A DNA stretch of 37,230 bases from a virus: positions 1 through 37,230 of the IMG/VR virus record IMGVR_UViG_3300031712_000159; one strand, given 5' to 3'. How positions within the stretch are numbered: the first letter of the stretch is position 1; every line of letters starts with the position of its first letter. Positions 3,987-35,295 of the stretch are shown piece by piece. The position numbers and the translations under genes were made by a program. The notes under the pieces were generated by a model. It searched no databases. It saw only the letters and a list, made by a program, of their open reading frames with translations, and had not been told where the DNA came from.

Positions 3987-5180
3987 TTATGGTATACGTG
4001 AATCAAACTCTAATGTATGTAAAACAAATTGTGATGCGCCACCAGCTGTAACTGTGAATCTATAATATTTATATGTGGTTGTGTTTGCAATAGTATATAA
4101 CTTCATCGAAGTAACATCTTGACCTATCTGTATATCAAGTATTGTTTCTTCTCCCGCAAAGGCACCAGTATTTGATGCTTTAAGAGACCAACCTGTAAGT
4201 TCTTCGGTTGGGACAGCTGCCCCGCCATGTACTCTATATCCTTTTATTACTTCTGTTCCCGAAAATTCATATCCAACCCATTGAGGATAACTTGTATAAT
4301 ACCAGCAACTCGTATATCCAACCCCATCATATTTGCCATCAAATACTCTCCATCCCTCGTATCCTGCATTTTGAGCAGATACGGTAACTACACCTGATGG
4401 GGTTGTGGCATTCGACATTATTGGCACCTCGCTAATATATGGTTTGTATTTATTTTCCAAATAATCTTCAACTAAAATAAAATCACTGGCACTTAATAAT
4501 CCGTCATATACTATTATCTCCGCTAAATCACCATTCATATATCCTCCATATCCTCCGTCATAAGCCACGCCTAAGTTTAAAGTACCAGTTAGTGCATTAC
4601 TGTTTGGTGTGCCAGAACCAACTAAATGTCCATTTTCGTATATCTCAGAACTTGCTCCATTCCAAATTCCTGCTGTTATTAAAGAAATTGGAATTTCTCT
4701 ATAATATTTCACTCCACCTGCCTGTGGGATTAATGATAGCATGCTATTGCTATAATATTGAAGCCACATATTACCACCAAAACTTGTTCCAACTGCAAAC
4801 GGATACTGTTCTAAACGTGAATTTTCAGTCCATACCATAAATAGGGTAATTGGCTGAGAATATGAAGCAGCAATATTTGCAACTAAAAAGTTGTCACTAC
4901 CATTGAAACGGATTACTGGCTTATTGTTTAATCCGATGCCCCCATCCGCCACGTATAAAGGTTGGTTTGATCCTGTTGCTTGTAAAGCATGATTTGTTCC
5001 TACAGAACTTTCATCTGACCATTGACTGACTAAATCCGAACCATCTTTAGTAACAAGTCCATCACCACGAAGCCACAATACGCAACCACCAATATCAGTA
5101 GGAACCCATCCACCACCACTTGCTGCATTTCTTCTACCGTAAGGAATCTGTATCATATCAATAATATTACGGATAAACAA
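3987..5180 (-). CDS. Tail fibre with LamG-like and F5/8-type C-like carbohydrate-binding domains
   Basis: This 397-aa protein has two recognisable modules. Residues about 30-240 resemble a concanavalin A/LamG sandwich (GCVLWLRGDGL, KPVIRFNGSDNF, GDLAEIIVYDG are typical). Residues about 250-397 resemble a discoidin (F5/8 type C) domain (WRVFDGKYDG, WVGYEFSG, YKYYRFTVTAG). Such domains bind glycans, so the protein probably recognises cell-surface polysaccharide. The ATG at 5180 overlaps the upstream fibre gene by 14 bp; an alternative in-frame ATG lies at 5156. Confidence 0.75.
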   Translation of the reverse strand: MFIRNIIDMIQIPYGRRNAASGGGWVPTDIGGCVLWLRGDGLVTKDGSDLVSQWSDESSVGTNHALQATGSNQPLYVADGGIGLNNKPVIRFNGSDNFLVANIAASYSQPITLFMVWTENSRLEQYPFAVGTSFGGNMWLQYYSNSMLSLIPQAGGVKYYREIPISLITAGIWNGASSEIYENGHLVGSGTPNSNALTGTLNLGVAYDGGYGGYMNGDLAEIIVYDGLLSASDFILVEDYLENKYKPYISEVPIMSNATTPSGVVTVSAQNAGYEGWRVFDGKYDGVGYTSCWYYTSYPQWVGYEFSGTEVIKGYRVHGGAAVPTEELTGWSLKASNTGAFAGEETILDIQIGQDVTSMKLYTIANTTTYKYYRFTVTAGGASQFVLHTLEFDSRIP

Positions 5181-6060
5181 CTAAAAACTGAACAGTTAAA
5201 TCGGCAGCATCATCATTGCTGCCTGCACCATCGGTACTAATTTCAATAGCATTTCCAAAAGCAAGTGCGTAATATGTAGAAGAAATATCAATACTTGTTT
5301 CGCCAAAAGTTTCATCAACCGATAATCCGTCGCTACCATTGGACGTGCAAATTTTATTACCAGCATTTACAATGTTTACTTTCGGTTGTGTTGCACCGCT
5401 ATCGTCAGTCGCAACCTTTGTACACATATAAACAATATAGGCGTCAGGTTTATCCCATTTAATGGCTGTTTTCAGAATTTCTGCAACTAAGTTTGTAGAT
5501 GCAGTTGCAAGACAAGCACCGGGAAGAACAATGGCAATCATTTCAGTAGAACCAGGCAATGGGGAATAATATAATTCCTGCAATGCTCCTGAGCCGGTAG
5601 TTAAGGCAACGCCACCAATGGTTAAAAGATTGGAAGTAATATTTTTTACAAATGCGTATTGGTAAGTTCCTGATAATTTAATTTTAAGACCGTACCCTTT
5701 TTTAATAGATGCTGTAAGATCGACAGCCAATGGAATGGTTGAAGTACTGGCTGCGGTAGTTGAAAATTGTGTGGTTGCAGTTAGTTGTTTCCACTTTTCA
5801 GTTTTATTGTTCCAGTTGGTGATATCGCCTGAAGCAATTCCATGCGCTAGTGAAGCAACAAATACTGGATCGCTTTCACTACTTAAATATGAATGCGTAT
5901 GCGATATGGCAGCAAATACAGAAGCAAAAGCTGTTTGCAAATATGTTTTTATTGCCGATAGCGATAACCTGAAATTATTACCACTTCGTGCAATTCGGAT
6001 CAGGTCGCCATCCAATGCCGGTGATCCATCGTTTTCGTCTGATATTTTTTTGTCGGCCAT
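5167..6060 (-). CDS. Tail fibre protein
   Basis: This 297-aa protein starts MADKKISDENDGSPALDGDLIRIAR, an N-terminus common in phage fibres. A HTHSYLSSESDP segment follows at about 54-66; HTH-type linkers are frequent in trimeric fibre shafts. The remainder is beta-rich. It begins 1 bp after the LysM-like gene and overlaps the next fibre gene. The role is attachment or fibre shaft; the receptor is unknown. Confidence 0.65.
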   Translation of the reverse strand: MADKKISDENDGSPALDGDLIRIARSGNNFRLSLSAIKTYLQTAFASVFAAISHTHSYLSSESDPVFVASLAHGIASGDITNWNNKTEKWKQLTATTQFSTTAASTSTIPLAVDLTASIKKGYGLKIKLSGTYQYAFVKNITSNLLTIGGVALTTGSGALQELYYSPLPGSTEMIAIVLPGACLATASTNLVAEILKTAIKWDKPDAYIVYMCTKVATDDSGATQPKVNIVNAGNKICTSNGSDGLSVDETFGETSIDISSTYYALAFGNAIEISTDGAGSNDDAADLTVQFLVVYP

Positions 6061-13060: not shown

Positions 13061-13585
13061 TTAGTTATATGAATTTGTATGTTTTACCCAGCAACGAAAT
13101 ACAAGCCAGCAAACCACTATTAATATTGAAAGTGGCCACAGGATCCACACGATGCCGGGAACATGATTTTTTACTGTAACTATTTGCTTATAATCCTTGT
13201 ATTTTTCATACAGAGTGCGATATACCTCAATCTTCGCATTGCGAATAAGAACTTTAATTGTATCGTTGTTTAAATATGGTTTAACATTGATAACATTATG
13301 ACTTACCCATACATCAACTGAAATATAATCGTAATCGTAAGTTCTTAAAGCAATATCAATCTCTGCTGACTGCTGACCTGGTATTAATATCTTGATGGTA
13401 TCAGCAGGTAATGGAGGAAGCTGAACGGTAAAGATTGAATCGCGGTAAATAATACTATCGTGTTTAATAATAGTAGTATCATGTATTTCAACGACTGGAC
13501 ATTTTGCACACCATTTGTTCAAGCGCTTCTGATAAGAGCAGGAAGCCAGTATAAATAATGATAATATGAAAAGTATTTTCTTCAT
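13061..13585 (-). CDS. Putative unimolecular spanin (lipoprotein with C-terminal transmembrane helix)
   Basis: The 174-aa product starts with a lipoprotein signal: MKKI, a hydrophobic core, and the lipobox LASC with Cys16. The C-terminal end (about 144-166, IVWILWPLSILIVVCWLVF) is one strong transmembrane helix followed by a short positive tail. An outer-membrane lipid anchor plus inner-membrane helix in a single protein is the topology of u-spanins such as T1 gp11, which fuse the two membranes at lysis. It overlaps the amidase gene by one base. A different lipoprotein role cannot be excluded. Confidence 0.65.
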   Translation of the reverse strand: MKKILFILSLFILASCSYQKRLNKWCAKCPVVEIHDTTIIKHDSIIYRDSIFTVQLPPLPADTIKILIPGQQSAEIDIALRTYDYDYISVDVWVSHNVINVKPYLNNDTIKVLIRNAKIEVYRTLYEKYKDYKQIVTVKNHVPGIVWILWPLSILIVVCWLVFRCWVKHTNSYN

Positions 13586-18246: not shown

Positions 18247-19782
18247 ATGAATTCATCATTACATATTTCCGACAAACAATCTTTGAAAGATTGGAATTCG
18301 TATTATGAATCGTTTATTGCAAAGGTAAGTGCCGATCATAACGAAACAGAGCAGGAAAGAAAAGATCGCATATCCAAACTTGAAAAGGATTTTGAAAAAT
18401 GGAAGTTGTATTATTTTCCTAAATACTGTTTTGCTCCATCAGCATCGTTTCAAAAGAGAGCAGCAAAGCGAGAACTTGAAAACCCTGAATGGTACGAAAC
18501 AAGGATATGGGCCAGGGAGCTTGCAAAGGATGTTGTTGAAATGATGGTTACGCTTTACCAGGCACTAACTGGTATGAAAAGGAATATCCTTTTCATATCA
18601 AACAGTTCTGATAAAGCTTGTGAACTTTTGGAACCATACAGAATAAATCTTGAAAGAAATGATCGAATAATAAACGATTATGGAATTCAGGCAATGCCAG
18701 GTAAATGGGCTTACGGTGATTTTACAACAACAAAAGGAGTTTCATTTTTAGCAGTTGGAGCCGATCAGTCACCGCGTGGATCACGTGATGAAGAAGTGAG
18801 GCCCGATAAAATAATAATAAGTGATATTGATACTGACCAGGATGTGAGGAATTCTGAAATAGTAAAAAACCGTTGGGCATGGTTTGAAAAAGCTGTGTTC
18901 CCAACTCGTTCAGTATCTAAGCCATTTCAGGTTATATTCCTGGGAAACCTTATTGCAAAATATTGTTGTATATCTCTTGCATCTGAGAAGTCAGACGTTG
19001 TTGACAAAATTAATCTTGAAGACAAGAATGGTGAAAGTTCATGGCCTGAAAAGAATAGTCCTGAAAACATTGCACGCATCAAAGCTAAAATAAGCATGTC
19101 GGCTTATCAAACCGAGTACATGAATAATCCCATAACTGAGGGAACAGTATTTAAAAAAATACAATGGGCAAAATGTCCAAGAATTTCAGCTCATAAAATA
19201 ATACTTAATTATGCTGATCCTGCTAATAGTAATAAAGACAAAGGGCCAAATTGTCATAAAGTTATAGTACAACTTGGTTTATTAAATGACATTTTATATA
19301 TATATAATTGTCGTTTAGACAAAACCAAAAACAGCAATTTTGTTCAATGGTTTTATGAACTTGAAACGAATGTGGAAAAGGTTCAGGTTTATAATTACAT
19401 TGAAAATAATTCACTGCAGGATCCTTTCTATGAACAGGTATTTATGCCTTTATTTCAGCAGGCCGCAAAACTAAATAATCATACAATACCAATTACTCCA
19501 GATAGGAGAGTAAAACCTGATAAATATTCCAGGATTGAAGGAAATTTGGAACCACTTAACAGAAACGGAAAACTCATCTTTAATATAGATGAGCAAAATA
19601 ATCCCCACATGCAGCGCCTTGAAGAACAATTCAGGGCAATTGATCCACGGTTGTCGGCGCCATGCGATGGCCCCGACGCAGTGGAAGGGGGATACTTTAT
19701 TTTGAATAATAAAATAAAGGCAACATCGCCAGTTGATATTGGCAAAAGAAATTCAATACAAACAAACAAAAAACGTTTTTAA
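18247..19782 (+). CDS. Terminase large subunit (Mu gp28-like)
   Basis: This 511-aa packaging ATPase/nuclease contains the block ADQSPRGSRDEEVRPDKIII (about 172-191), which is strongly typical. The Walker B-like segment KIIISDIDTD follows at about 188-197. The Walker A-like position reads WARELAKDV at 88-96, where relatives usually have A-R-G-x-A-K-S, so it departs from the usual loop. The nuclease domain starts around HKIILNYADPANSNKDKG with its first acidic residue, and FVQWFYEL and SRIEGNLEPLNRNGKLIF follow. It translocates DNA into proheads. Confidence 0.87.
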   Translation: MNSSLHISDKQSLKDWNSYYESFIAKVSADHNETEQERKDRISKLEKDFEKWKLYYFPKYCFAPSASFQKRAAKRELENPEWYETRIWARELAKDVVEMMVTLYQALTGMKRNILFISNSSDKACELLEPYRINLERNDRIINDYGIQAMPGKWAYGDFTTTKGVSFLAVGADQSPRGSRDEEVRPDKIIISDIDTDQDVRNSEIVKNRWAWFEKAVFPTRSVSKPFQVIFLGNLIAKYCCISLASEKSDVVDKINLEDKNGESSWPEKNSPENIARIKAKISMSAYQTEYMNNPITEGTVFKKIQWAKCPRISAHKIILNYADPANSNKDKGPNCHKVIVQLGLLNDILYIYNCRLDKTKNSNFVQWFYELETNVEKVQVYNYIENNSLQDPFYEQVFMPLFQQAAKLNNHTIPITPDRRVKPDKYSRIEGNLEPLNRNGKLIFNIDEQNNPHMQRLEEQFRAIDPRLSAPCDGPDAVEGGYFILNNKIKATSPVDIGKRNSIQTNKKRF

Positions 19783-19783
19783 T

Positions 19784-20197
19784 ATGTTCATAGAAAGCAC
19801 TGACTATCCAAGCACAATTCATGCTGAAATATTAACGGCCATAACAAGGAGCGATCCAACAGTTATTGCCGATTGTGAAGATAAAGCAATTGACCAGGTG
19901 AAAGGATACCTGAGCGCGCGTTACGATATTGATGCAATATTCAACGCAACCGGAACAAGCAGGAGCAAAACAATATTGCAGTACACGCTCGACATTGCTA
20001 TTTACCGAATGCACATTGCTCACAATCCAGTTAAAATTACTGAAGCAAGAGTTGCATTGTACGAACAGGCGCTGGCTGACCTCAGCAAAATACAGGCAGG
20101 TAAAATAAATCCTCCGGGACTTCCTGTATTAATGCCTCAGGATGTACACGGACAGCTTTTATTTAACAGTAATACAAAACGTAATAATCATTTTTAA
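19784..20197 (+). CDS. Head-tail connector-type protein (Mu gp36-like, DUF1320)
   Basis: From ATG 19784 (MFIESTDYPSTIHAEILTAI) the product is 137 aa. The frame extends upstream inside the terminase gene, but an N-terminus with F-I-x-x-x-D-Y is typical. The pattern CEDKAIDQVKGYLSARYDID and TILQYTLDIAIYRMH matches gp36-like (DUF1320) proteins, small head-completion proteins of Mu-like phages. It starts 1 bp after the terminase stop and is followed by the portal gene. Confidence 0.75.
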   Translation: MFIESTDYPSTIHAEILTAITRSDPTVIADCEDKAIDQVKGYLSARYDIDAIFNATGTSRSKTILQYTLDIAIYRMHIAHNPVKITEARVALYEQALADLSKIQAGKINPPGLPVLMPQDVHGQLLFNSNTKRNNHF

Positions 20198-20207
20198 TCA
20201 ACTATAA

Positions 20208-21512
20208 ATGGCAAAGACTATAACAACAGCAAACCGTAAGGCCGGAAAGGTCGAAAGTGGAAAGATAGTAACTTACCAGTTGGATATCCGGCAGATAATG
20301 CGCACTGTTCAGGACATTCAAACATGGAGACAAGCAATTACATCGGCAGAGAATATTAACTTCCCTAATAAGATAAAACTGTTCGACCTGTATTACGATT
20401 TATTGCTCGATGCTCATCTTACCAGTGTTATTGATGCACGTAAAACATCGGTGTTAAAATCACCCATCACTTTTTCTAAGGAAGGAAAGGAAAATGAAGT
20501 TATTTGTAAGCTAATAAAATCGCCTCAATTTCTTGATATGCTCGATAATATTCTTGATACACGTTATTGGGGCCATACATTGATTGAATTTGAACCAGGG
20601 CAATTATTAAAACCTCATTTAATACCACGCAAACATGTGGTTCCTGAAAAAGGAATTGTTATTATAAATCAAAACGATCAAAATGGTATTGAATATCGGG
20701 AACCGCCCTATTCTAACTTTATGATCGAAATAGGCAAACCCGGTGATCTTGGTTTACTTGTTAAAGCAGCACAGTACGTAATATACAAACGTAACTGTTT
20801 AGGGGATTACAGTCAGTATTCGGAAATATTCGGACAGCCTTTACGCAAAGGAACTTATAATCCTTATGATGAAATATCCAGGACTGAGCTTAAAAAAAGC
20901 ATGGAAGAAATGGGATCAAGCGCATGGGCCATATTCCCTGAAGGAACAAATATTGAATTTATAGAATCGGCCAGCAAAACAGGATCAGCTGAGCTATACA
21001 AAGGATTGATTGAACTTTGCAATAAAGAAATAAGTAAATTAATACTTGGTGAAACATTAACAACCGATCAGGGTAGTTTAGGCACACAGGCACTTGGTAA
21101 TGTTCATGCCGATGTTGCTGAAGAAAAGGAATACGCTGACAAAACTTTCATTATAAATTTCCTTAATAATGAATTTTTTGAATTCCTTAATAACAACGGA
21201 TGGCCTACAGATGGTGAGTTTTCATTTCAGGAAAATGAAATAATATCCCTTAAAGACGATATTCTGATTGATGAAAAATTAAGTGCTATCATTCCTTTGG
21301 ACGATGATTATTTCTATGAACATTATGGAAGGCCAAAGCCTGCCAATTATAATGAGCTTAAAAAGAAAATGGATGAAGATAAAGCAGCTAACAATAATCC
21401 ATTTGGTTTTCCAACGGCAGGAAATCAGGATCCCAAAACAAAACAACAAAATATTACCAACAAACTTAACTTCTGGAATCGCTTCTCTTTTTTTCCAATA
21501 GCCCGTCATTAA
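20208..21512 (+). CDS. Portal protein (Mu gp29-like, DUF935)
   Basis: This 434-aa protein forms the dodecameric vertex ring. Recognisable stretches are DLYYDLLLDAHLTSVIDARK (about 63-82), LDTRYWGHTLIEFEPGQLLKPHLIPRKHVV (about 115-145, typical of DUF935), YSQYSEIFGQPLRKGTY and LILGETLTTDQGSLGTQALGNVHADV. It ends ARH-TAA, eight codons after a T7 run (21488-21494), downstream of which the -1 frame opens into the gpF-like gene. Confidence 0.87.
   Translation: MAKTITTANRKAGKVESGKIVTYQLDIRQIMRTVQDIQTWRQAITSAENINFPNKIKLFDLYYDLLLDAHLTSVIDARKTSVLKSPITFSKEGKENEVICKLIKSPQFLDMLDNILDTRYWGHTLIEFEPGQLLKPHLIPRKHVVPEKGIVIINQNDQNGIEYREPPYSNFMIEIGKPGDLGLLVKAAQYVIYKRNCLGDYSQYSEIFGQPLRKGTYNPYDEISRTELKKSMEEMGSSAWAIFPEGTNIEFIESASKTGSAELYKGLIELCNKEISKLILGETLTTDQGSLGTQALGNVHADVAEEKEYADKTFIINFLNNEFFEFLNNNGWPTDGEFSFQENEIISLKDDILIDEKLSAIIPLDDDYFYEHYGRPKPANYNELKKKMDEDKAANNNPFGFPTAGNQDPKTKQQNITNKLNFWNRFSFFPIARH
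21488..21494 (+). other. T7 slippery run linking portal frame to gpF-like frame
   Basis: The portal frame reads TCT TTT TTT CCA here. A -1 slip on the T run enters the frame that stays open from 21470 into the gpF-like gene and gives sensible sequence (SPYIGACFCPACS) before the first ATG at 21611. No ATG or GTG lies between the upstream TAA (21467-21469) and 21611 in that frame. Confidence 0.4.
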
Positions 21513-21610
21513 CGGGCATTCACTACGAACTTAAATCGCCTTATATCGGTGCGTGTTTTTGTCCGGCATGTTCAGTTGAGAATATAACTGCAGTTGATCC
21601 CGATCCTGCT

Positions 21611-22345
21611 ATGATCAAGGAAGCAAAGCGTATTGCAAAACTTATTTATAACGGTAAGTTAAAGGAGGGCGACATTGATCCGAAGCTTGCAACGCTGGTT
21701 GCAGAAAAGCTAAAGGAAGCAATTATGGAAGGTTTTGGCAAGAACCTTACAGACCTTGATCCAGGCAACCCCGATTATGAAATGCTGAAGAACCTTGAAA
21801 AGAATGTATATGCATTCAGCGCAGCAAAAAACTATCAGCAGCTTAAAGATATGACCAGGGCTTTGTCCGATGAAAGCGGAAACATACGCACCTTTACTGA
21901 ATTCAGGAACATTGTACAGAATATAAATTACCAGTACAACGCAGACTGGTTACAGACTGAATATAACACAGCCATTAACAGTGCCACTACAGCCAGCCGT
22001 TGGGTTGAATTCGAACAGAATAAGGAATCAATGCCATTGCTTGAGTATGTTACTGCAGGCGATGATCGTGTAAGGCCCGAACACCAGGAGCTGAATCATG
22101 TGAAGAAAAATATTGATGATCCTTTCTGGGATATGTATTACCCTCCAAACGGTTTCAATTGCCGATGCACTGTTGATCAGCTTACTTCAGGAGCCGAGAC
22201 TCCTGATCATAAAATTAAATATCCTGAAGTAACTCCCATGTTCCAGGTTAACCTGGCAAAACAAGGACTTGCATTTCCTGCCAATCATCCGTATTTTGAT
22301 GGTGTGCCTGATGAAGTACTGCAATCGCTGAAGCCAAAAAAGTAA
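21611..22345 (+). CDS. Minor head protein, gpF/SPP1 gp7-like (Mu gp30)
   Basis: This 244-aa protein from its first ATG carries the family signature: YVTAGDDRVRPEHQELNHV (about 149-167), then FWDMYYPPNGFNCRCTVDQL (about 174-193). Gp7/gpF-type proteins stabilise the portal or escort DNA. The open frame continues 47 codons upstream to 21470 and encodes GACFCPACSVENITAVDPDP, which looks like genuine N-terminal sequence with paired cysteines. The real product may therefore be longer, started at a rare codon (ATT or CTG) or made by -1 slippage from the portal gene. Confidence 0.85.
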   Translation: MIKEAKRIAKLIYNGKLKEGDIDPKLATLVAEKLKEAIMEGFGKNLTDLDPGNPDYEMLKNLEKNVYAFSAAKNYQQLKDMTRALSDESGNIRTFTEFRNIVQNINYQYNADWLQTEYNTAINSATTASRWVEFEQNKESMPLLEYVTAGDDRVRPEHQELNHVKKNIDDPFWDMYYPPNGFNCRCTVDQLTSGAETPDHKIKYPEVTPMFQVNLAKQGLAFPANHPYFDGVPDEVLQSLKPKK

Positions 22346-22348
22346 ACC

Positions 22349-22915
22349 ATGCCGATGCAGAATAACATAGACTGGAAGTCCATACAGTCGCAGTTCGACA
22401 GGTTAAAGATGCTGATGCCTGCAAAGATGGGAACTACCTGTGTTAAGTTTTTTAAAGATCGTTTCAGCGCACAGGCATGGACTGATGAATCGGCATCGCC
22501 CTGGGCAGCACGAAAACCCGGAAGCAAACGAAACAAGGGAAGGGCAATACTTATCAATTCAGGAAGGTTGCGTAACAGCATTCATATTTTATACACCACA
22601 GCCGACAGCTCCACCGTTGGAACCGAAGTTCCTTATGCTGAAATACACAACGAAGGATTTAATGGAGTGGAACAGGTTTCAGGTTTCACCAGGAAGAAGT
22701 TTAAAAAGAGTACAGTATTCAGTACCGAGGTATTCAATATTAAATCGCGCAAGGGCCGTAAGTCTACAATTAAAAGCGTTTCAGGCGAGACTGAAGTAAA
22801 ACCATTCAGCAGGCAAATGAATATGCCACAGCGCAGATTTATTGGTGAAAGCAAACTGCTTGTTCATAAACTTGAACAAATGATAACCATCGAACTTAAA
22901 AAGATTTTTAAATAA
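22349..22915 (+). CDS. Phage morphogenesis protein (Mu gpG-like)
   Basis: This 188-aa protein has the gpG-like pattern FFKDRFSAQAWTDESASPWAARKPGSKRNKG (about 33-63), then ILINSGRLRNSI, VPYAEIHNEG and the C-terminal MPQRRFIGES. These are hallmarks of virion morphogenesis/tail completion (gpS/gpG) proteins. A basic insertion at about 110-150 (FTRKKFKKSTVFSTEVFNIKSRKGRK) stands out and may touch DNA. It starts 3 bp after the gpF-like stop. Confidence 0.8.
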   Translation: MPMQNNIDWKSIQSQFDRLKMLMPAKMGTTCVKFFKDRFSAQAWTDESASPWAARKPGSKRNKGRAILINSGRLRNSIHILYTTADSSTVGTEVPYAEIHNEGFNGVEQVSGFTRKKFKKSTVFSTEVFNIKSRKGRKSTIKSVSGETEVKPFSRQMNMPQRRFIGESKLLVHKLEQMITIELKKIFK

Positions 22916-22923
22916 GCCATATT

Positions 22924-23451
22924 ATGGATGTACTATATAAATCAATACTAAAGCGCATTGAAGCAGAAATACCCGAAGTGGTTTGCATTGCTGAAGACTG
23001 CGGACAACTTGAATTTCCCGAAAAAGAATACCCGGTTACATTCCCCTGCGTGCTTATAGATATACAATCAATTGACTGGACTACGCTGGGAATGGGAACA
23101 CAAACGGGCAATACACTTGTGCGCCTGCGACTGGCTTTCGATATTTACGAAGACACCCACAAGGATGCTCCCGACATGGATACAGCTTTAACCAGGCTAA
23201 AATTGCTTAACAAACTGCATAAAAATATTCACACATTCGAAGGAATGATACTTCCGGTTCCGGGACATGCCGGGCAGTTTTACGATTCACATTTTAAAAA
23301 GCTTGTTCGAACTAAAACCGTTGCAGAAAAGCGACAGGATGGTTTGCGTGTTTACGCAATTGATTACATGACCAACATGAAGGATGTAAACGCTTACCCC
23401 GATTATGGATCAACAACTGTAACGGATGTTATTGTGCAACCGGTACCATAA
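22924..23451 (+). CDS. Head-tail joining protein, Mu gp37-like (DUF1834-type)
   Basis: This 175-aa protein is the last gene of the rightward late operon. The start MDVLYKSILKRIEAEIPEV and the segment VTFPCVLIDIQSIDW resemble small tail-terminator or joining proteins of Mu-like phages. The dispersed order (gp36, portal, F, G, then this) supports a gp37-type role. Its stop codon is followed at once by a perfect terminator palindrome. Confidence 0.55.
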   Translation: MDVLYKSILKRIEAEIPEVVCIAEDCGQLEFPEKEYPVTFPCVLIDIQSIDWTTLGMGTQTGNTLVRLRLAFDIYEDTHKDAPDMDTALTRLKLLNKLHKNIHTFEGMILPVPGHAGQFYDSHFKKLVRTKTVAEKRQDGLRVYAIDYMTNMKDVNAYPDYGSTTVTDVIVQPVP

Positions 23452-25907: not shown

Positions 25908-26207
25908 TTACAGGGTTTGCTGGTGAATAGTGTTTAACAATTTTGTGATTAATATTTGTTCGTAAATCCTATGCATACTCATTATTTTGCGAAGCTTTGT
26001 TTCTAAAAAATAACTTTCACACATTGTAAAACTCAGTGTTTGCTGTTTCTTTATGTTAAGGATCCTGCGCTGAAGCTTAAACATGAAAGCGGTCAGTACT
26101 TCCTTCTCAGCACGCTTGTAAAGCCCTTCAGGAATTATATTCATGAACTGCATTATCTGAAACAATGCCTTCAGCTCCTGGCTCGATAGTTTTATTTTTA
26201 CTTTCAT
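25908..26207 (-). CDS. Hypothetical basic helical protein
   Basis: This 99-aa protein is predicted all-helical with long basic amphipathic stretches (LKALFQIMQFM, AFMFKLQRRILNIKK, FLETKLRKIMSMHRIYEQIL). It begins inside the preceding gene (80-bp overlap). Being small, basic, helical and close to a DGR, it was considered as an Avd-like RT cofactor; similarity to Avd is not evident, so it is left unassigned. Confidence 0.5.
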   Translation of the reverse strand: MKVKIKLSSQELKALFQIMQFMNIIPEGLYKRAEKEVLTAFMFKLQRRILNIKKQQTLSFTMCESYFLETKLRKIMSMHRIYEQILITKLLNTIHQQTL

Positions 26208-26349
26208 GTTTTTCTTCTTTATTTTTTAGTTGATCTTCGTAAAGTGGTTTCATTGCTTTTATTCTCTTGTAATGCTCTGCTTCATCAATCCACTCTAACA
26301 CTTTTAAATATTCATTAAGCAGATCATCAGGTAAATTCGTATCGTTCAT
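26128..26349 (-). CDS. Hypothetical acidic small protein
   Basis: This 73-aa protein (MNDTNLPDDLLNEYLKVLEW) is acidic at the start, with a basic middle and disordered tail KNKEEKHESKNKTIEPGAEG. Its start codon lies inside the end of the interrupted gene at 26327-26635 in another frame, and its end overlaps the next gene by 80 bp. Function unknown. Confidence 0.45.
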   Translation of the reverse strand: MNDTNLPDDLLNEYLKVLEWIDEAEHYKRIKAMKPLYEDQLKNKEEKHESKNKTIEPGAEGIVSDNAVHEYNS

Positions 26350-26635
26350 TGATCTTTCTAATTGTAGTTGTAAATGGAAATCCTGTTGACCTGGGCACTT
26401 GCTGTATCTGATCCATCAATGTACTTCCTGAAGTAAACAGTACATGCATTTCGTTTTCAAATGACAATTGCAGAGTTAAACATTTACCATTGCCTTTTTA
26501 CTGATAACATTTTGAATCATCTATTTTATAATCATGCACCATTATTGATTTATCAAGTATTTTATGAATTTTAATTTTGTCACCTGTAAATTTGTTAGTC
26601 GTAGGCTTAATACCAAAGTCACTGAAATTCGTCAT
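26327..26635 (-). pseudogene. DGR-operon gene coupled to RT, interrupted by an in-frame TAA
   Basis: The start codon overlaps the RT stop as ATGA (26632-26635). The frame reads MTNFSDFGIKPTTNKFTGDK (1-20) and runs to TAA at codon 46 (26498-26500). After that codon it continues KGNGKCLTLQLSFENE, LFTSGSTLMDQIQQVP and FPFTTTIRKINERYEF to TGA at 26327-26329. The two halves make one coherent domain of 102 codons, similar to small OB-fold-like proteins I know from Bacteroidota mobile elements; a single-stranded nucleic-acid role is inference. Either the gene is broken by a nonsense mutation, or the stop is read through. It occupies the otherwise empty gap between RT and downstream genes. Confidence 0.7.
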
Positions 26636-27597
26636 GCTGCTAATTGATATAAATTAAACTTCTTTAATAAATGAATACTATCACAATGCTTTGCCCATCC
26701 ATAATAAGATGCTATGGATGCTTTATTTTTATTATTTGCAAGCATCCTGGCAAAAGCTTTTTTAATGCTTGGACGTAATAAAACGTGTGTATGATAATGG
26801 ACATAACCTACAAAATCAATTCCCCTGGATTCAACCGGGAATATTTGATAGTTATGTTTAATTGTGAGCTTTAAATTACAGCTAAAATAAAGCCGTATTT
26901 CAGCGAGTAATTGATGCAGGTACTTTTTATCATCAGACAGAATAACAATGTCGTCAGCGTAACGGAAATAATACTGTACGCCTTTTACTTCTTTTATCCA
27001 GTGATCGAAATACGTTAAATAGAAGTTTGCAAAATATTGACTCAGGTAGTTTCCAATGGGGAGTCCGGGTGCGCTGTCAATTATCTCATCAAGTAACCAA
27101 AGAAGATCTTGATCCTTAAATTTTCTACGGAGCAACATCTTGAGCACATCGTGATCCACGCTTGGATAAAACTTTTTAATGTCAAGTTTCAGGCAATAAG
27201 TTGTATCGGCATAATCATTCAATGCTTTGCGTACTGCATTAGAAGCTGCGTGAATGCCACGACCTTTTATACAACTGAAAGTATCTGCTGTAAATGTTGA
27301 AACAAACACCGGCTCAAGGATGTTCATCACAGCGTGATGAACGATCCTGTCCGGGTAATAAGGAAGCCGACTTATGATCCTTTCCTTTGTCTCATTAATC
27401 GTGAATGTAGTGTACTGGCTTGTTTTGTAAGTTCTGTTTTTCAAAGCTTCATGAAGAGCAATAATATTTGCTTCACAGTTCCTGTCGTGCAATTTAATCC
27501 CATACTGATTCCCTTTACCTTTACGTGCAATTGAATCGGCAAGCATTAAATTTTCAATGCTAATTATTTTTTCGTACAGGTTATTCAATCGTTTCAT
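26632..27597 (-). CDS. DGR reverse transcriptase
   Basis: This 321-aa RNA-dependent DNA polymerase shows the canonical order: YCLKLDIKKFYPSVDHD with catalytic Asp139 (motif A), GLPIGNYLSQYFANFYL at about 178-194 and YFRYADDIVIL with YADD at 213-216. A thumb-side GIDFVGYVHYHTHVLLRPS follows. I-G-x-x-x-S-Q in place of the Q-G-x-x-x-S-P of group II intron and retroviral enzymes is the DGR hallmark. There is no maturase or endonuclease domain. It copies the TR transcript lying just upstream (27716-27790) into adenine-mutagenised cDNA that replaces the VRs. It is co-oriented with its targets and the early operon and translationally coupled to the small downstream gene. Confidence 0.95.
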   Translation of the reverse strand: MKRLNNLYEKIISIENLMLADSIARKGKGNQYGIKLHDRNCEANIIALHEALKNRTYKTSQYTTFTINETKERIISRLPYYPDRIVHHAVMNILEPVFVSTFTADTFSCIKGRGIHAASNAVRKALNDYADTTYCLKLDIKKFYPSVDHDVLKMLLRRKFKDQDLLWLLDEIIDSAPGLPIGNYLSQYFANFYLTYFDHWIKEVKGVQYYFRYADDIVILSDDKKYLHQLLAEIRLYFSCNLKLTIKHNYQIFPVESRGIDFVGYVHYHTHVLLRPSIKKAFARMLANNKNKASIASYYGWAKHCDSIHLLKKFNLYQLAA

Positions 27598-27690
27598 TAT
27601 GCTTTGCCTTTGCTTGTTAAAAGAGAACTTTCATTTTCATTACTAATACCCTTTTAGTTATTTGTAATTTTTTGCCATGTTGGCACGGTC

Positions 27691-27806
27691 TGCATTATTC
27701 ATAATTATTTTGCATAGGTGAGAGCTGCAATTCGTATTCGTATTCCAGTTATCGTAATTCGCATTCGACAGACTGAAGCCTGAAGGGCGCAGCTCTGAAT
27801 AATGCA
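27691..27806 (-). ncRNA. Template RNA with two-part terminal stem
   Basis: Outer arms TGCATTATTC (27691-27700) and GAATAATGCA (27797-27806) are exact complements. Inner arms AGAGCTGC (27721-27728) and GCAGCTCT (27789-27796) are exact complements and abut the outer right arm. Together they make an 18-bp stem with a 20-nt bulge on one side, closing a loop that contains the TR core. The region lies between target gene 1 and the RT gene and has no ORF. RNA folding is predicted, not shown. Confidence 0.65.
27716..27790 (-). repeat. DGR template repeat (TR), 75 bp
   Basis: The TR aligns without gaps to 27904-27978 and 28316-28390. On the coding (minus) strand it has 20 adenines. VR1 differs at 15 of these, VR2 at 11, and neither differs at any of the 55 other positions. 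If translated it would read SNANYDNWNTNTNC in the core, showing the AAC/AAT codon enrichment that maximises amino-acid choice under adenine mutagenesis. It is upstream of the RT gene in the same direction. Confidence 0.97.
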
Positions 27807-27812
27807 CCACCT

Positions 27813-28226
27813 TTACTTTTTATACAATATATAATCCTTCCAATGTTTATTGAAATTCTTATTCTCAAAACAATACATTGCAACTTCTTTGTTTATAAAT
27901 TGAAGGCGAGAGCCGCAAGACGTAATCGTAATCCAGCGACCGAAATCCGCAGCCGACAGACCGAAGCCCGAAGGGCGCTTTTTATCTGCTTCAATTCCAA
28001 ATAACAGTTCATATTTCCAATTATTGTCGGTGTAATCAGGAATCCATTCTTTTCCGCCATTGGCTTCTGCATTTAATGCTGCAATGATAATCGGCAGGAT
28101 ATAACATGCATATAAATAATCTCTCATTTCTTCTGGAAATTTTGAGAATTCAGAAATCGTTAGCAGTTCCTTTTTACAGTATTTAAAAGCATCTGCGACT
28201 GTTTTAATTTTAGATTTGTAGTTCAT
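27813..28226 (-). CDS. DGR target protein 1
   Basis: This 137-aa protein has VR1 covering residues 84-108. Before it are WIPDYTDNN (61-69) and KYELLFG; after it QFINKEVAMYCFEN and a terminal YILYKK. The frame RPSGFGLS, variable core, W, CGSRL is a small-protein fold seen in Bacteroidota phage proteins, probably C-type-lectin related (inference from DGR targets generally). Compared with the TR-encoded residues, N92 to Ala, N94 to Asp, Y95 to Phe, D96 to Gly, N97 to Arg, N99 and N101 to Ile and N103 to Ser have changed. There is no signal peptide, membrane segment or tail-attachment domain. The gap to its paralogue upstream is 4 bp. The ligand is unknown. Confidence 0.9.
   Translation of the reverse strand: MNYKSKIKTVADAFKYCKKELLTISEFSKFPEEMRDYLYACYILPIIIAALNAEANGGKEWIPDYTDNNWKYELLFGIEADKKRPSGFGLSAADFGRWITITSCGSRLQFINKEVAMYCFENKNFNKHWKDYILYKK
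27904..27978 (-). repeat. Variable repeat 1 (VR1)
   Basis: 75 bp matching the TR except at 15 of its 20 coding-strand adenines. Changes go to G, C and T. It codes for residues 84-108 of target 1. Its 3' end, GCGGCTCTCGCCT on the coding strand, is the GC-rich initiation-of-homing-like end and differs from the TR end by two adenines. Confidence 0.96.
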
Positions 28227-28230
28227 GGTT

Positions 28231-28710
28231 TTATTTTTTAATGGTTATAAATTCTTTATATTTTTCAGTGAATTGGGCAAAAGCAAAACGCATTCTTTTT
28301 TCATCTTTAAAATAAAGGCGAGAGCCGCAATACGTATGCGCAAACCAGTTATCGTAATACGCATACGACAGACCGAAGCCCGAAGGGCGCATATCAAAGT
28401 AACCATACCACTTCGGTTCATTCGTAGTCCAGTCAGGTACCCATTTTTCATTTATAGCTTTTGTGATTATTACCAACTCCTGGTAACGCATCGTATGGCC
28501 CTCAATACCTGCTTTTACCATCTTGTGATAACATACTACATCTTCGTCTTGATCTCCGCAATATTTAATTGCTAATTCAAGACTGATAATACTTTCATAG
28601 TTGAAGTCAAAAGCATCTTTTCCATAAATATCATGGAGAAGTTCTTTTAATTCATCTGACAAATTCCCATAAAGCTTTTTCGCTTTTTCAATTGATTTTT
28701 GTGTTTCCAT
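28231..28710 (-). CDS. DGR target protein 2
   Basis: This 159-aa paralogue of target 1 has a longer helical N-terminus (KLYGNLSDELKELLHDIYG) and the shared WVPDWTTNEPKWYGYF block (90-105). VR2 is at about 108-132 (RPSGFGLS, YAYYDNWFAHTY, CGSRL), and the C-terminus is YFKDEKRMRFAFAQFTEKY. Variable positions favour aromatic residues (Y, Y, F, H, Y), as in binding surfaces. There is no signal peptide or fibre-attachment region. As first gene of the DGR block it follows an exported DPBB-like protein by 10 bp. Confidence 0.9.
   Translation of the reverse strand: METQKSIEKAKKLYGNLSDELKELLHDIYGKDAFDFNYESIISLELAIKYCGDQDEDVVCYHKMVKAGIEGHTMRYQELVIITKAINEKWVPDWTTNEPKWYGYFDMRPSGFGLSYAYYDNWFAHTYCGSRLYFKDEKRMRFAFAQFTEKYKEFITIKK
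28316..28390 (-). repeat. Variable repeat 2 (VR2)
   Basis: 75 bp matching the TR except at 11 of 20 coding-strand adenines, no other change. Nine TR adenines are unaltered, so VR2 keeps more TR identity than VR1. Four changed positions at the two flanks are A to G in both VRs. Confidence 0.96.
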
Positions 28711-29289: not shown

Positions 29290-29901
29290 TTATATTGATG
29301 AAAAATTCAAATCAATTACATTGTATTCACCATTCACATTTCGTTCCCAAATGCGATAGTATGTTTTACTGTCGGGCCTACGTATGCTTTCTTCCAATAG
29401 GTTCAAAGCTTCCTGGAATAAATGGTGTTTTATTTTGCTGCGATATTTTACCAGGCTTAAAACTTTTTTAGAATCAAGCTTTCCCTTTGTTGTACTGAAA
29501 GCATCCATTACAAGGTTTTTCAGGAACTCTTCATTCGATTCAAGTTTGCTGTCCAGGTATTCATCAAGTTTGCTTTTGCATCCTTCAATAAGCAATGCAT
29601 CAAAGTCAATTCTGTCGCTTATGCTTACTTCAATTTTAATGCTACTGTCGAAATTGTAAAAGGTGAAGTTTCCTTTTTGTTTTTCAACTTCCATTTCCTT
29701 CATGGCTTTGTTGTATACTTCGTCGCAAAGCTTTTTCATTTGCTTTTTATATGCTATAAGATCCTCGTTAATCTTTTTTGCATTGTTAAGCAGTGTGGCT
29801 GCACTTCTTTCTTTTAACCTGGCTAATCCTTTTACAAATTTTATTGGGCATAAGGTTCCGGTTTCATCTTTCCAGCTTTCCTGGTTTGTCTTTTGAATCA
29901 T
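29290..29901 (-). CDS. DUF3164-like early protein
   Basis: This 203-aa protein matches the DUF3164 family of Mu-like phages by pattern: W-x-D-x-x-G-x-x-x-P (SWKDETGTLCPIKFVKGL, about 9-26), a helical segment KKLCDEVYNKAMKEMEVEKQ and ISDRIDFDALLIEGCKSKLDE, with the terminal YRIWERNVNGEYNVIDLNF. The family is always near the transposase/GemA genes; its biochemical role is not known. Confidence 0.72.
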   Translation of the reverse strand: MIQKTNQESWKDETGTLCPIKFVKGLARLKERSAATLLNNAKKINEDLIAYKKQMKKLCDEVYNKAMKEMEVEKQKGNFTFYNFDSSIKIEVSISDRIDFDALLIEGCKSKLDEYLDSKLESNEEFLKNLVMDAFSTTKGKLDSKKVLSLVKYRSKIKHHLFQEALNLLEESIRRPDSKTYYRIWERNVNGEYNVIDLNFSSI

Positions 29902-32052: not shown

Positions 32053-32928
32053 CTATGCTACTCTTCTGCTCTTTTTAATTTCATCGTATATCCTTCTAAG
32101 GCTGCAATCGGTTGCTACAATCATTTTCCGTACATCTGCTTCAGGAGCATTAGCCTTAATGATCATAGCAGCATGTGCCTGTTTAAAATCAGTACTGTCG
32201 GCAGCTCCATCGGGAGTGGCTCTCTGGTACCTGCTTCCGTAACGACTGAATAATTCAGTATAACCAACCTTCTTATTGTCGATACTGCGCTGTATTTTGG
32301 CTTTCAGTCCGTCGGCTCCCATCATGTACCATCCGCAGGTGCGTTCAAGAGCGTTCCATAAAGCTTTCAGTTCAAGAAAGGCACCGTAATCGAGGTCACC
32401 GGCTTCATCAAGAATAATGAGGGGGGCCGGAAGCGACTTCAGATAAAAGACCAAATCCGCGTACACTTCCGAGTACTTACCTGCATACCCCACCCCAAAT
32501 TCTTTAGCAATGGCCCTTACTAATTTCTGTTTGCTCTTTACCTGGCTGCAATCAATATAAACTGCATCGGTATTGCTGCGTACATACACTTTTGCTGTGT
32601 AGCTTTTGCCAATATCAGCAACATCGCACAGTAAACGGCTTGCAGCATGATCCTGGCAAAACTTCAACTGTCCACTCACAAATTTGAATACAGGAGTATC
32701 AGCGGTGTTCCACTTTGCTTCGTTGGTAACGCTTAACTCAAGTATCCTGGCAAGCGATATCCAGTTTGCATTGCTCAGTATTCTTTCGGTTTTACCGTTC
32801 TTTATCTGCGAGTACTGTGCAGTATTAATGCCCAGCGATAAAGCGAATTTTGCATCGCTTCCGGTAAAGTTTACCCTGCGCTTGCCGAGTTCCTTTACAA
32901 TTGTTTGTTTTAAAGTTTCTGTAATCAT
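32053..32928 (-). CDS. MuB-like transposition ATPase
   Basis: This 291-aa AAA+ protein delivers target DNA to the transposase. It has an N-terminal helix-turn-helix (about 22-65, SLGINTAQYSQIKNGKTERI), Walker A DVADIGKSYTA (102-112) and Walker B LIILDEAGDLDYG (170-182). A C-terminal SLRRIYDEIKKSRR tail follows. The arrangement HTH-AAA matches MuB, as does position after the transposase. Confidence 0.9.
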   Translation of the reverse strand: MITETLKQTIVKELGKRRVNFTGSDAKFALSLGINTAQYSQIKNGKTERILSNANWISLARILELSVTNEAKWNTADTPVFKFVSGQLKFCQDHAASRLLCDVADIGKSYTAKVYVRSNTDAVYIDCSQVKSKQKLVRAIAKEFGVGYAGKYSEVYADLVFYLKSLPAPLIILDEAGDLDYGAFLELKALWNALERTCGWYMMGADGLKAKIQRSIDNKKVGYTELFSRYGSRYQRATPDGAADSTDFKQAHAAMIIKANAPEADVRKMIVATDCSLRRIYDEIKKSRRVA

Positions 32929-33264: not shown

Positions 33265-35295
33265 TTATATTGATTCAATTCCGCGTTCTGTATAAAAGTC
33301 ACCACTGTATTTTTCAATAAGCGCATCATAATTGGCTTCGCTTTTTTCCTGCATACTGTCGCTGTTTACTGCTGCTATTTCTACAGGAGTATTCACAGCC
33401 TTTTCAAAACTATCGTTGCGTATTATTTCAACCCTTGTGGTCTTCTCAGCCTTATTATCCTTAATCATTTTATCGTAGCTGCTTATATACTTCGCCTGAT
33501 CCTGCCTTGTGGTTTCATCGGCATCGGTACGCTCGGCCATTGCCTCATTGTAGCGTGTAATAAGCGAGCAGGTGTCAATAAAACAATCGTTCTGGTATAT
33601 GTACACTTCTTTTATCTCGTCGTTGCTGTCTGGCAACCAGTAAGCCTGTACGCTGTAATTGTTCGGGAGCAGTCTGCCAATTATCGAAGGATGGCTCAGC
33701 TGGTATTCCTGGTATTGAACTTTTACTGCCTGGTTCCTCGTAACTGAGGTCGTTGTTAAATGTCCAATAGCACGCATCAGAACCGGACGGTTTATTTTCG
33801 GGGCATCAGGGTTCATGTTATGCTTCAGCACACCCATTCTGGTCATTCCCGGATACATTTTCTGATTACTGTGTAAAGCATTGTTGTATTGGTTTACATC
33901 GTTCATGTCGTCGGCAACAAGTTCATTGTAATCGAAAGTCTTTTCCTTGTATTCATCATTGCTTTCGGTATTGCTTTTAGGCTGATCAATCCTGTAAGCT
34001 TCACTTTTTGCCCACCAACGGCCTATTCCACCGTGATTACTTTTTTCAACACTGTATTTCTTTATCTTGTTGAAATGCTCGGCTCGTTTCTCCTGGCTGT
34101 TACTTGGAGCGCAGAAGCGAACAAACGTGAACATTTTAGCAAGTTCAGCAGCAAATTCATTCATTAAATGGTGTTCAACTTCCACTTCCATTGGCATTCC
34201 GAAGCCGTTATCATCAATAAACCGGAACATATCCCTGAAGCATTCAAATACCAGGCTCATATCCTTCTTCTGACTGTACGATTTTCCAATAACACAACCG
34301 CTGGCAACATCATAAGCGTAATAAGCCTTAACACGAATACCATTGTGCATTTTGCGCGGCAAATCCCTGTCGTCCATTGAAATCTTACTGAATGCGAAGA
34401 AAGGAGAGTGCCTTCTGAAATGCGGACGATACACGTTATTGTACTGAAGCGTACCTGATCGGTATTTTGCAACCACAGCAGCGTTATTTGGTTTGTTCAG
34501 ATAATTCCATATAGTTGCTTCGCTAAGTACTATTGGCTTTCCGTCTTCTTTAATAAAATCCTTGCGGTCAATTATCTCACCGGTCATTAAGTCCACCACT
34601 TCAATGGCTCCTCCTAAAAACTGTAAATACAAATCGTGAACATCGTTGCTGAAAGGTTTATTTTTCATGCAATACAGTGAAAGGATCAGGCGTTCAATGG
34701 TAGCAGTAACCTTTCGAGTATTTTGATTGCAGAACTTACCCGATATAAGGCTTTCGTATCCACTCTTCAGGTAATCCTTCAATTTCATTTTCAAACGCTT
34801 TTCGCTGGCAGGAAGAGTGTGGGGATATTCATCATTTTGTACGAGCATTACAGCCTCCGTCATATTTCCCCACATCTTACTGCATGATCCTTGTTTGCTT
34901 TTACGAATGGCCTTCGTTTCATTCAACACAATATGCATTGCATTCAATACCGATGCATTTGCAACATATTCGCGCTGGTAATCTTCCGGCAGCATCCTTC
35001 CATCGTACAACTTGTACATGGAATAAAACTCCACGGCTTTAGGATCCTTCTCCAGGCATCCTGCAAGTCCGCTTTTTTTGGCTGATTCTTTAGGATCACC
35101 GTATTTAATAATGATCTGTTCTTTCACCCCCGATGGGAGGCTATCGAACTTAACCAGGGCCGGAGTACCGTAACATCCCCTGCGGATAACCTCCAACTTA
35201 CCTCTTTGAGTGTAGTGGCGGTAATTGGCTATTGATATAATATCGGGAACCAATTCTCCGTGTTGTATAGCAAGTGTGTTATTATAATATTCCAT
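33265..35295 (-). CDS. MuA-like transposase
   Basis: This 676-aa protein has an N-terminal DNA-binding region (RRGCYGTPALVKFDSLPSGV). The catalytic core has FSKISMDDRDLP (Asp308/309), the strand EVEVEHHL at about 370-377 where the second catalytic acid falls, and PSNSQEKRAEHFNKIKKY with Glu402/406. Then come LHSNQKMYPGMTRMGVL and a beta-barrel domain (KVQYQEYQLSHPSIIGRLLP). It cuts and joins phage ends during replicative transposition. The second catalytic position reads Glu rather than Asp. An intrinsic terminator lies just upstream of the gene. Confidence 0.9.
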   Translation of the reverse strand: MEYYNNTLAIQHGELVPDIISIANYRHYTQRGKLEVIRRGCYGTPALVKFDSLPSGVKEQIIIKYGDPKESAKKSGLAGCLEKDPKAVEFYSMYKLYDGRMLPEDYQREYVANASVLNAMHIVLNETKAIRKSKQGSCSKMWGNMTEAVMLVQNDEYPHTLPASEKRLKMKLKDYLKSGYESLISGKFCNQNTRKVTATIERLILSLYCMKNKPFSNDVHDLYLQFLGGAIEVVDLMTGEIIDRKDFIKEDGKPIVLSEATIWNYLNKPNNAAVVAKYRSGTLQYNNVYRPHFRRHSPFFAFSKISMDDRDLPRKMHNGIRVKAYYAYDVASGCVIGKSYSQKKDMSLVFECFRDMFRFIDDNGFGMPMEVEVEHHLMNEFAAELAKMFTFVRFCAPSNSQEKRAEHFNKIKKYSVEKSNHGGIGRWWAKSEAYRIDQPKSNTESNDEYKEKTFDYNELVADDMNDVNQYNNALHSNQKMYPGMTRMGVLKHNMNPDAPKINRPVLMRAIGHLTTTSVTRNQAVKVQYQEYQLSHPSIIGRLLPNNYSVQAYWLPDSNDEIKEVYIYQNDCFIDTCSLITRYNEAMAERTDADETTRQDQAKYISSYDKMIKDNKAEKTTRVEIIRNDSFEKAVNTPVEIAAVNSDSMQEKSEANYDALIEKYSGDFYTERGIESI

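Follow-up and report, generated by a model that had tools for sequence, protein, structure and literature searches.

A DGR with one template and two paralogous target genes in a predicted Mu-like temperate phage, and its relatives in phages of Bacteroidota

The window (the whole stretch of DNA that was analysed, a linear IMG/VR virus contig of 37230 bases with no host flank visible) was found to carry a diversity-generating retroelement (DGR) in which one template repeat (TR) serves two adjacent target genes, T1 and T2, each containing a variable repeat (VR1 and VR2, respectively), upstream of a reverse transcriptase (RT) gene. The explanation which best accounts for the data, to which we assign a probability of roughly 0.78, is that this is the DGR of a temperate Mu-like phage of Bacteroidota, with a structured TR RNA and two paralogous targets which we infer to be non-structural.

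The entire cassette lies on the minus strand, where the transcript runs T2, T1, TR, RT and then a small frame coupled to the RT, in the order given by the first-pass annotation (made from the sequence alone). T2 (28231-28710) encodes a protein of 159 amino acids which matched the phrog_11581 family (E 2.7e-14) and contains VR2 (28316-28390), while T1 (27813-28226; 137 amino acids) contains VR1 (27904-27978) and is a paralogue of T2, the profiles of the two proteins aligning over 123 columns (E 3.9e-53). The TR (27716-27790) holds 20 adenines and has a mutagenised core at about 27727-27773; all three repeats are 75 nt in length, and with VR1 in T1 and VR2 in T2 the earlier claim of one template and two target genes was borne out. 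The RT gene (26632-27597) encodes 321 amino acids with matches to RVT_1 (E 2e-17) and phrog_1423 (E 7.6e-124). Both motifs of DGR-type RTs, (I/V/L)GxxxSQ and YxDD, were present (as LPIGNYLSQ and YADD), and IGNYLSQ and YADD were invariant across 18 aligned RTs; the RT, the TR and the two VRs had all been placed correctly beforehand.

Elsewhere in the window, genes were identified for an S24 repressor, terminase, portal, head, sheath and baseplate proteins, a MuA-like transposase (33265-35295, minus strand; phrog_310, E 2e-53), a MuB-like transposition ATPase (32053-32928, minus strand; phrog_296, E 9e-37) and a DUF3164 early gene which is the upstream neighbour of the cassette (29290-29901, minus strand; E 2.3e-32). 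A tyrosine integrase was sought in the record and none was found. The record is, on this gene content, predicted to be a Mu-like temperate phage. It had been described as a Mu-like prophage, of which the first half stands on phrog_310, phrog_296 and DUF3164 and the second does not, as the integration state of the phage is not visible in a record with no visible host flank. Terminase, portal and head morphogenesis genes were located on the plus strand (18247-23451), with the other head and tail genes on the minus strand, and a DNA methyltransferase gene (387-1280; phrog_56, E 3e-63) was located at the far end of the structural block.

Differences between the TR and the VRs were confined to TR adenines. 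VR1 was mismatched at 15 of the 20 adenines and VR2 at 11 of the 20, with none of the 55 other bases mismatched in either, exactly as first counted; the chance of adenine-only mismatches under random placement is 7e-12 for VR1 and 3e-8 for VR2. In the 47-nt core alone, 11/16 (VR1) and 7/16 (VR2) adenines were changed (3e-7 and 2e-4, respectively). Across the family, sampled through 112 loci with 228 distinct TR/VR pairs, adenines of the core became A, G, T or C and the other TR bases almost never differed; one count gave 68 mismatches at 13131 non-A positions.

The first-pass annotation had taken all of these differences as diversification, a view which holds for the core; four in each VR are instead edge marks which are fixed across the family and are not fresh mutations. 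They are located in the window at 27781, 27774, 27726 and 27719, with a further mark at 27715 just outside the 75 nt, and VR1 and VR2 carry an identical base at each. Positions were numbered from a 3' motif anchor in the same 228 pairs, such that the core extends from -47 to -1. The edge adenines are found at -55 (mostly G; mismatched in 101/101 pairs), -48 (G; 146/148), 0 (G; 208/208), +7 (G; 219/220) and +11 (T; 163/163). Fixed TR/VR differences at the 3' end, the IMH/IMH* criterion, were thus present, at 0 and +7 (G) and at +11 (A to T). Because the changes at -55 (TCA/TCG, Ser) and +11 (CTA/CTT, Leu) leave the amino acid unaltered in the reading frame of the window, the edge marks are not accounted for by selection on the protein alone. 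On the simplest reading, they would fall outside the tract that is replaced and would serve to distinguish VR from TR, resembling IMH/IMH* but at both ends.

Activity was evident in close relatives. Five contigs from different metagenomes (L034, L037, L038, L039 and L042) have an identical TR and only 0-4 differences from one another across about 1800-2555 nt of sequence beyond the repeats, yet in each of T1 of L042, T2 of L037 and T3 of L038 the VR departs from its counterparts at 11-13 sites. These substitutions were at TR adenines in 34 of 36 cases, and each VR was altered as a block, independently of the other VRs. Elizabethkingia-type loci (L006, L009 and L012; host genus judged from matching genome loci) likewise showed VR changes with an identical TR. 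As near-identical contigs differ in VR blocks while the TR is unchanged, such cassettes are active in nature. Population variation of the VRs with a constant TR, the kind of test that had been proposed beforehand, is therefore seen in close relatives, where the independent diversification claimed for the two VRs, supported in the window by the VR core, is observed directly. Exact-match searches for near-identical records of the window phage found none.

The TR is contained within a predicted non-coding RNA of the DGR (27598-27811, minus strand), identified by covariation and folding. An outer stem (27797-27811 with 27687-27700) encloses the TR, its 5' arm following the T1 stop codon and its 3' arm preceding a small hairpin (27673-27685). 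Among 69 distinct arm pairs, 7.81 of 8 positions pair, compared to 6.23 when arms are swapped among loci. In an alignment of 38 sequences the three helices contained 95.8% standard pairs (36-45% in slid controls) and 110 doubly changed cells (30.6 in shuffles), while folding of the window RNA gave a z of -2.9. The Rfam family RT-17 (RF03020) matched the TR-RT spacer of the Elizabethkingia-type relative L006 at 43.5 bits (threshold 40.4) and the window spacer (27604-27690) at 31.2 bits, below threshold; the match spans the 3' spacer only, whereas the covarying TR-enclosing stem lies outside the matched stretch. A DNA hairpin just downstream of the VR is usual in DGRs, though not defining, and perfect stems of at least 7 bp, of the type known from the Bordetella phage BPP-1, were found in 17 of 251 cases compared to 5 in shuffles, which is not convincing as a signal.

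RT relatives numbered 415 in IMG/VR and 232 in genome contigs, and the best 80 of each were examined with a layout scan for repeats differing only at template adenines. The loci were reached through the RT because the target family is too divergent for a T2 query: no matches were obtained with T2 as a single-protein query against IMG/VR and named phages. The T2-T1-TR-RT layout was present in nearly all examined relatives of at least about 64% RT identity, with the VRs about 190 and about 570-650 nt upstream of the TR, the TR ~100 nt before the RT and, in some loci, a third VR. Named hosts were almost all Bacteroidota (Flavobacterium, Elizabethkingia, Chryseobacterium, Pedobacter, Niastella, Dyadobacter and others). 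Of 51 viral records, a MuA-like transposase was identified in 20 and a match to tyrosine integrase in 22, and no record was seen with both; the cassette therefore occurs in tyrosine-integrase phages as well and is not confined to those of Mu-like type. A single clade (support 100/98) united all two-target loci in an RT tree, nested among lineages with a tail-protein target and a single VR of about 112-117 nt, the rooting being rough as the root, BPP-1, sits on a long branch.

Further VRs were noted 4-9 kb from the template in the Dyadobacter loci L132 (5895-5969 and 18771-18845) and L139 (5020-5092 and 17083-17160), and on this evidence target genes at dispersed sites are probably also acted on by these DGRs. 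Other loci, namely L130 (6452), L137 (1398 and 1779), L159 (5011), L032 (371) and L071 (606), likewise have additional VR copies at a distance of several kb from the TR, and the Emticicia genome BO119 contains two cassettes of the two-target clade on different contigs (L127 and L143).

A partner gene of ~100 amino acids begins at the RT stop codon, with a match in 155 of 161 loci, and was full-length without a stop in 134. The family is the uncharacterised phrog_19665; no Pfam or NCBIfam match and no PDB relative of the partner were found. Avd is a common, though not defining, DGR accessory protein, and identity of the partner with Avd was rejected as Avd models do not find it; bAvd (PF22296) was present at the cassette in none of 33 records, the window included. 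The one bAvd gene found (4962-5276; E 1.6e-28) lies about 30 kb from the cassette in the record containing L058, perhaps belonging to a second DGR in the same phage. A different small gene, phrog_11557, lies directly after the RT in L142, L136, L162 and their relatives (with hankyphage-type and crAss-like RTs), and in hankyphage-type loci a partial phrog_19665-type match lies beyond it. In the window, an ORF at 26128-26349 was dropped as the coupled gene, having no relative in 80 loci, in preference for a phrog_19665-type frame at 26327-26635 (minus strand), which begins inside the final codons of the RT gene.

This frame is interrupted by an in-frame TAA at 26498-26500. The small coupled gene of the first-pass annotation is therefore present but broken, and its description of a complete DGR is safe as regards the DGR and not as regards completeness. 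An internal stop is absent from 153 of the 155 matched loci (partial ones included) and outside the window occurs in L150 alone, near the end of the gene, so the nonsense codon suggests that the window copy may have lost activity recently; either the cassette was disabled only recently or the assembly is in error at this point. It is possible, though less likely than not, that the window's DGR is a decaying, inactive copy in which RT and repeats are intact and the partner protein has been lost, but a single assembly error would look identical, and with an intact RT and no non-adenine VR mismatches any loss would have to be recent. The proposal that the three repeats are ordinary duplications, with an adenine bias due to chance or base composition, has nothing in its favour except the repeats themselves, and is already refuted by the placement statistics given above and by the identical pattern in 112 loci.

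T1 and T2 have median lengths of about 136 and 154 amino acids across the family, and all 65 aligned T1 proteins matched phrog_11581, which is without annotation or Pfam domain; neither target had a Pfam match or a PDB sequence match. Predicted models (pLDDT 85 and 80 outside the VR) show helices, with the VR located in a short beta segment and a further helix at the C-terminus, and Foldseek and VIA found no solved structure matching them, the VR part of the models being of low confidence. Matches in BFVD were to uncharacterised Caudovirales, crAss-like and other phage proteins. A C-type lectin fold around the VR is usual in DGRs, though not defining. In 28 whole genomes carrying the RT, phrog_11581 members were mostly two in number and near the RT locus as far as listed. 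The conserved neighbours upstream of the cassette were genes for transposition, an ATPase and DUF3164, and those downstream were packaging genes; by coordinate distance the tail tape-measure gene was ~15-28 kb away in 10 of the 11 records with a match above the cut-off; in one Mu-like record it was only ~7 kb away. With early and packaging genes as neighbours, a mostly distant tape-measure gene and a family lacking annotation or Pfam domain that mostly occurs as two members near the RT, a non-structural role is somewhat favoured for T1 and T2, the main rival being a role in the tail. The first-pass annotation had made no mention of the paralogy or small size of the targets, or of their placement away from the tail genes. 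Under the rival, T1 and T2 would be minor virion proteins (tail tip or fibre accessories), and the DGR would alter host range, as it does in BPP-1 and hankyphage. In clades 1, 4 and 6 the targets of phage DGRs are for the most part tail proteins (PMC8144416), and the VR ends with GSRLCF as in the hankyphage-type tail target, with whose C-terminal end the last 27 VR residues alone align (E 5e-7). The targets are, however, small and single-module with no tail family match, they lie in the early region or beside packaging genes, and the VR is not C-terminal, being followed by about 25 residues; we consider a tail role unlikely. Receptor-binding proteins can nonetheless be encoded anywhere in a genome, and the ~7 kb distance, the 27-residue likeness and the interrupted partner gene were all counted against the preferred explanation as a whole.

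Among the described systems close to that of the window is the hankyphage DGR of Bacteroides (PMC6199706, PMC12135933), likewise found in a transposable Bacteroidota phage, with adenine-specific TR/VR differences and a small gene beside a related RT (hankyphage-type RTs are about 60-65% identical). That DGR has a single ~117-nt VR in one long tail protein (phrog_5302 in relatives), whereas in the window there are two VRs, each of 75 nt and in a small paralogue at a distance from the tail module, so that the mark of the hankyphage type, one long VR placed C-terminally in a tail protein, is absent. BPP-1 shares the RT, TR/VR, adenine mutagenesis, fixed 3'-end IMH/IMH* differences and a structured spacer RNA, which is known to recruit the RT complex (PMC12875486), but encodes Avd between target and TR and has a C-type lectin tail tip as target; the window has no Avd, a different RT-coupled gene and fixed marks at both repeat ends. 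The Quimbyvirus DGR (PMC8008677), a precedent for a phage target outside the structural module, also has two targets, one of them outside that module; both are C-type lectin proteins, encoded apart from each other and with one of them structural, in contrast to the adjacent paralogues of another family in the window. Tentaclin DGRs nd4 and nd12 (PMC10743442) are phage DGRs which also combine one TR with two target genes, but these encode two unlike C-type lectin receptor-binding proteins, with one VR near the 5' end of its gene, rather than paralogues. Two-target cassettes are already known to make up about 13% of DGRs (cited in PMC10743442), and the targets of the present clade may lie in an unnamed cluster of the survey of over 30,000 DGRs by Roux et al. 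(PMC8144416). No description of this clade and its paired small targets, of the RT partner, of the TR-enclosing stem or of double edge marks was found in the literature searched.

The mechanism would be the known one of DGR retrohoming. The transcript is expected to fold into a structured RNA which presents the TR to the neighbouring RT, and this would copy it while misreading adenines; the core of the resulting cDNA (about 47 nt) would then replace the matching core of T1 or T2. The flanking marks at both ends would stay fixed and keep TR and VR distinct. In the proteins, the variable segment encoded by the VR is predicted to separate a helical N-terminal part from the conserved C-terminal helix. 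The targets may be binding proteins, produced together with the early genes or during lysogeny, whose partner is fast-changing and located in or on the host cell, conceivably a component of host defence or a competing phage.

Phage DGRs are mostly explained as host-range switches on tail proteins. Here a single RT clade, found in numerous Bacteroidota phages with one or other of two modes of integration, goes together with small paralogous targets without a known fold, and since these usually lie far from tail genes and the arrangement belongs to one widespread phage branch, this suggests that two-target DGRs vary something other than tail fibres. The partner gene is an RT-coupled candidate for the place of Avd, and the family offers natural data on a large scale as to which positions of the template are rewritten and which are spared. 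Cultivable lysogens (e.g. Flavobacterium, Pedobacter and Niastella) offer a defined set for the study of non-tail targeted hypermutation. A bolder reading, which we hold to be less likely than not, would be that one branch of phage DGRs has left the tail, its mutator now varying the binding surface of paired small intracellular proteins to match changing host defences or rival phages, as a weapon of the early genes or of the lysogen.
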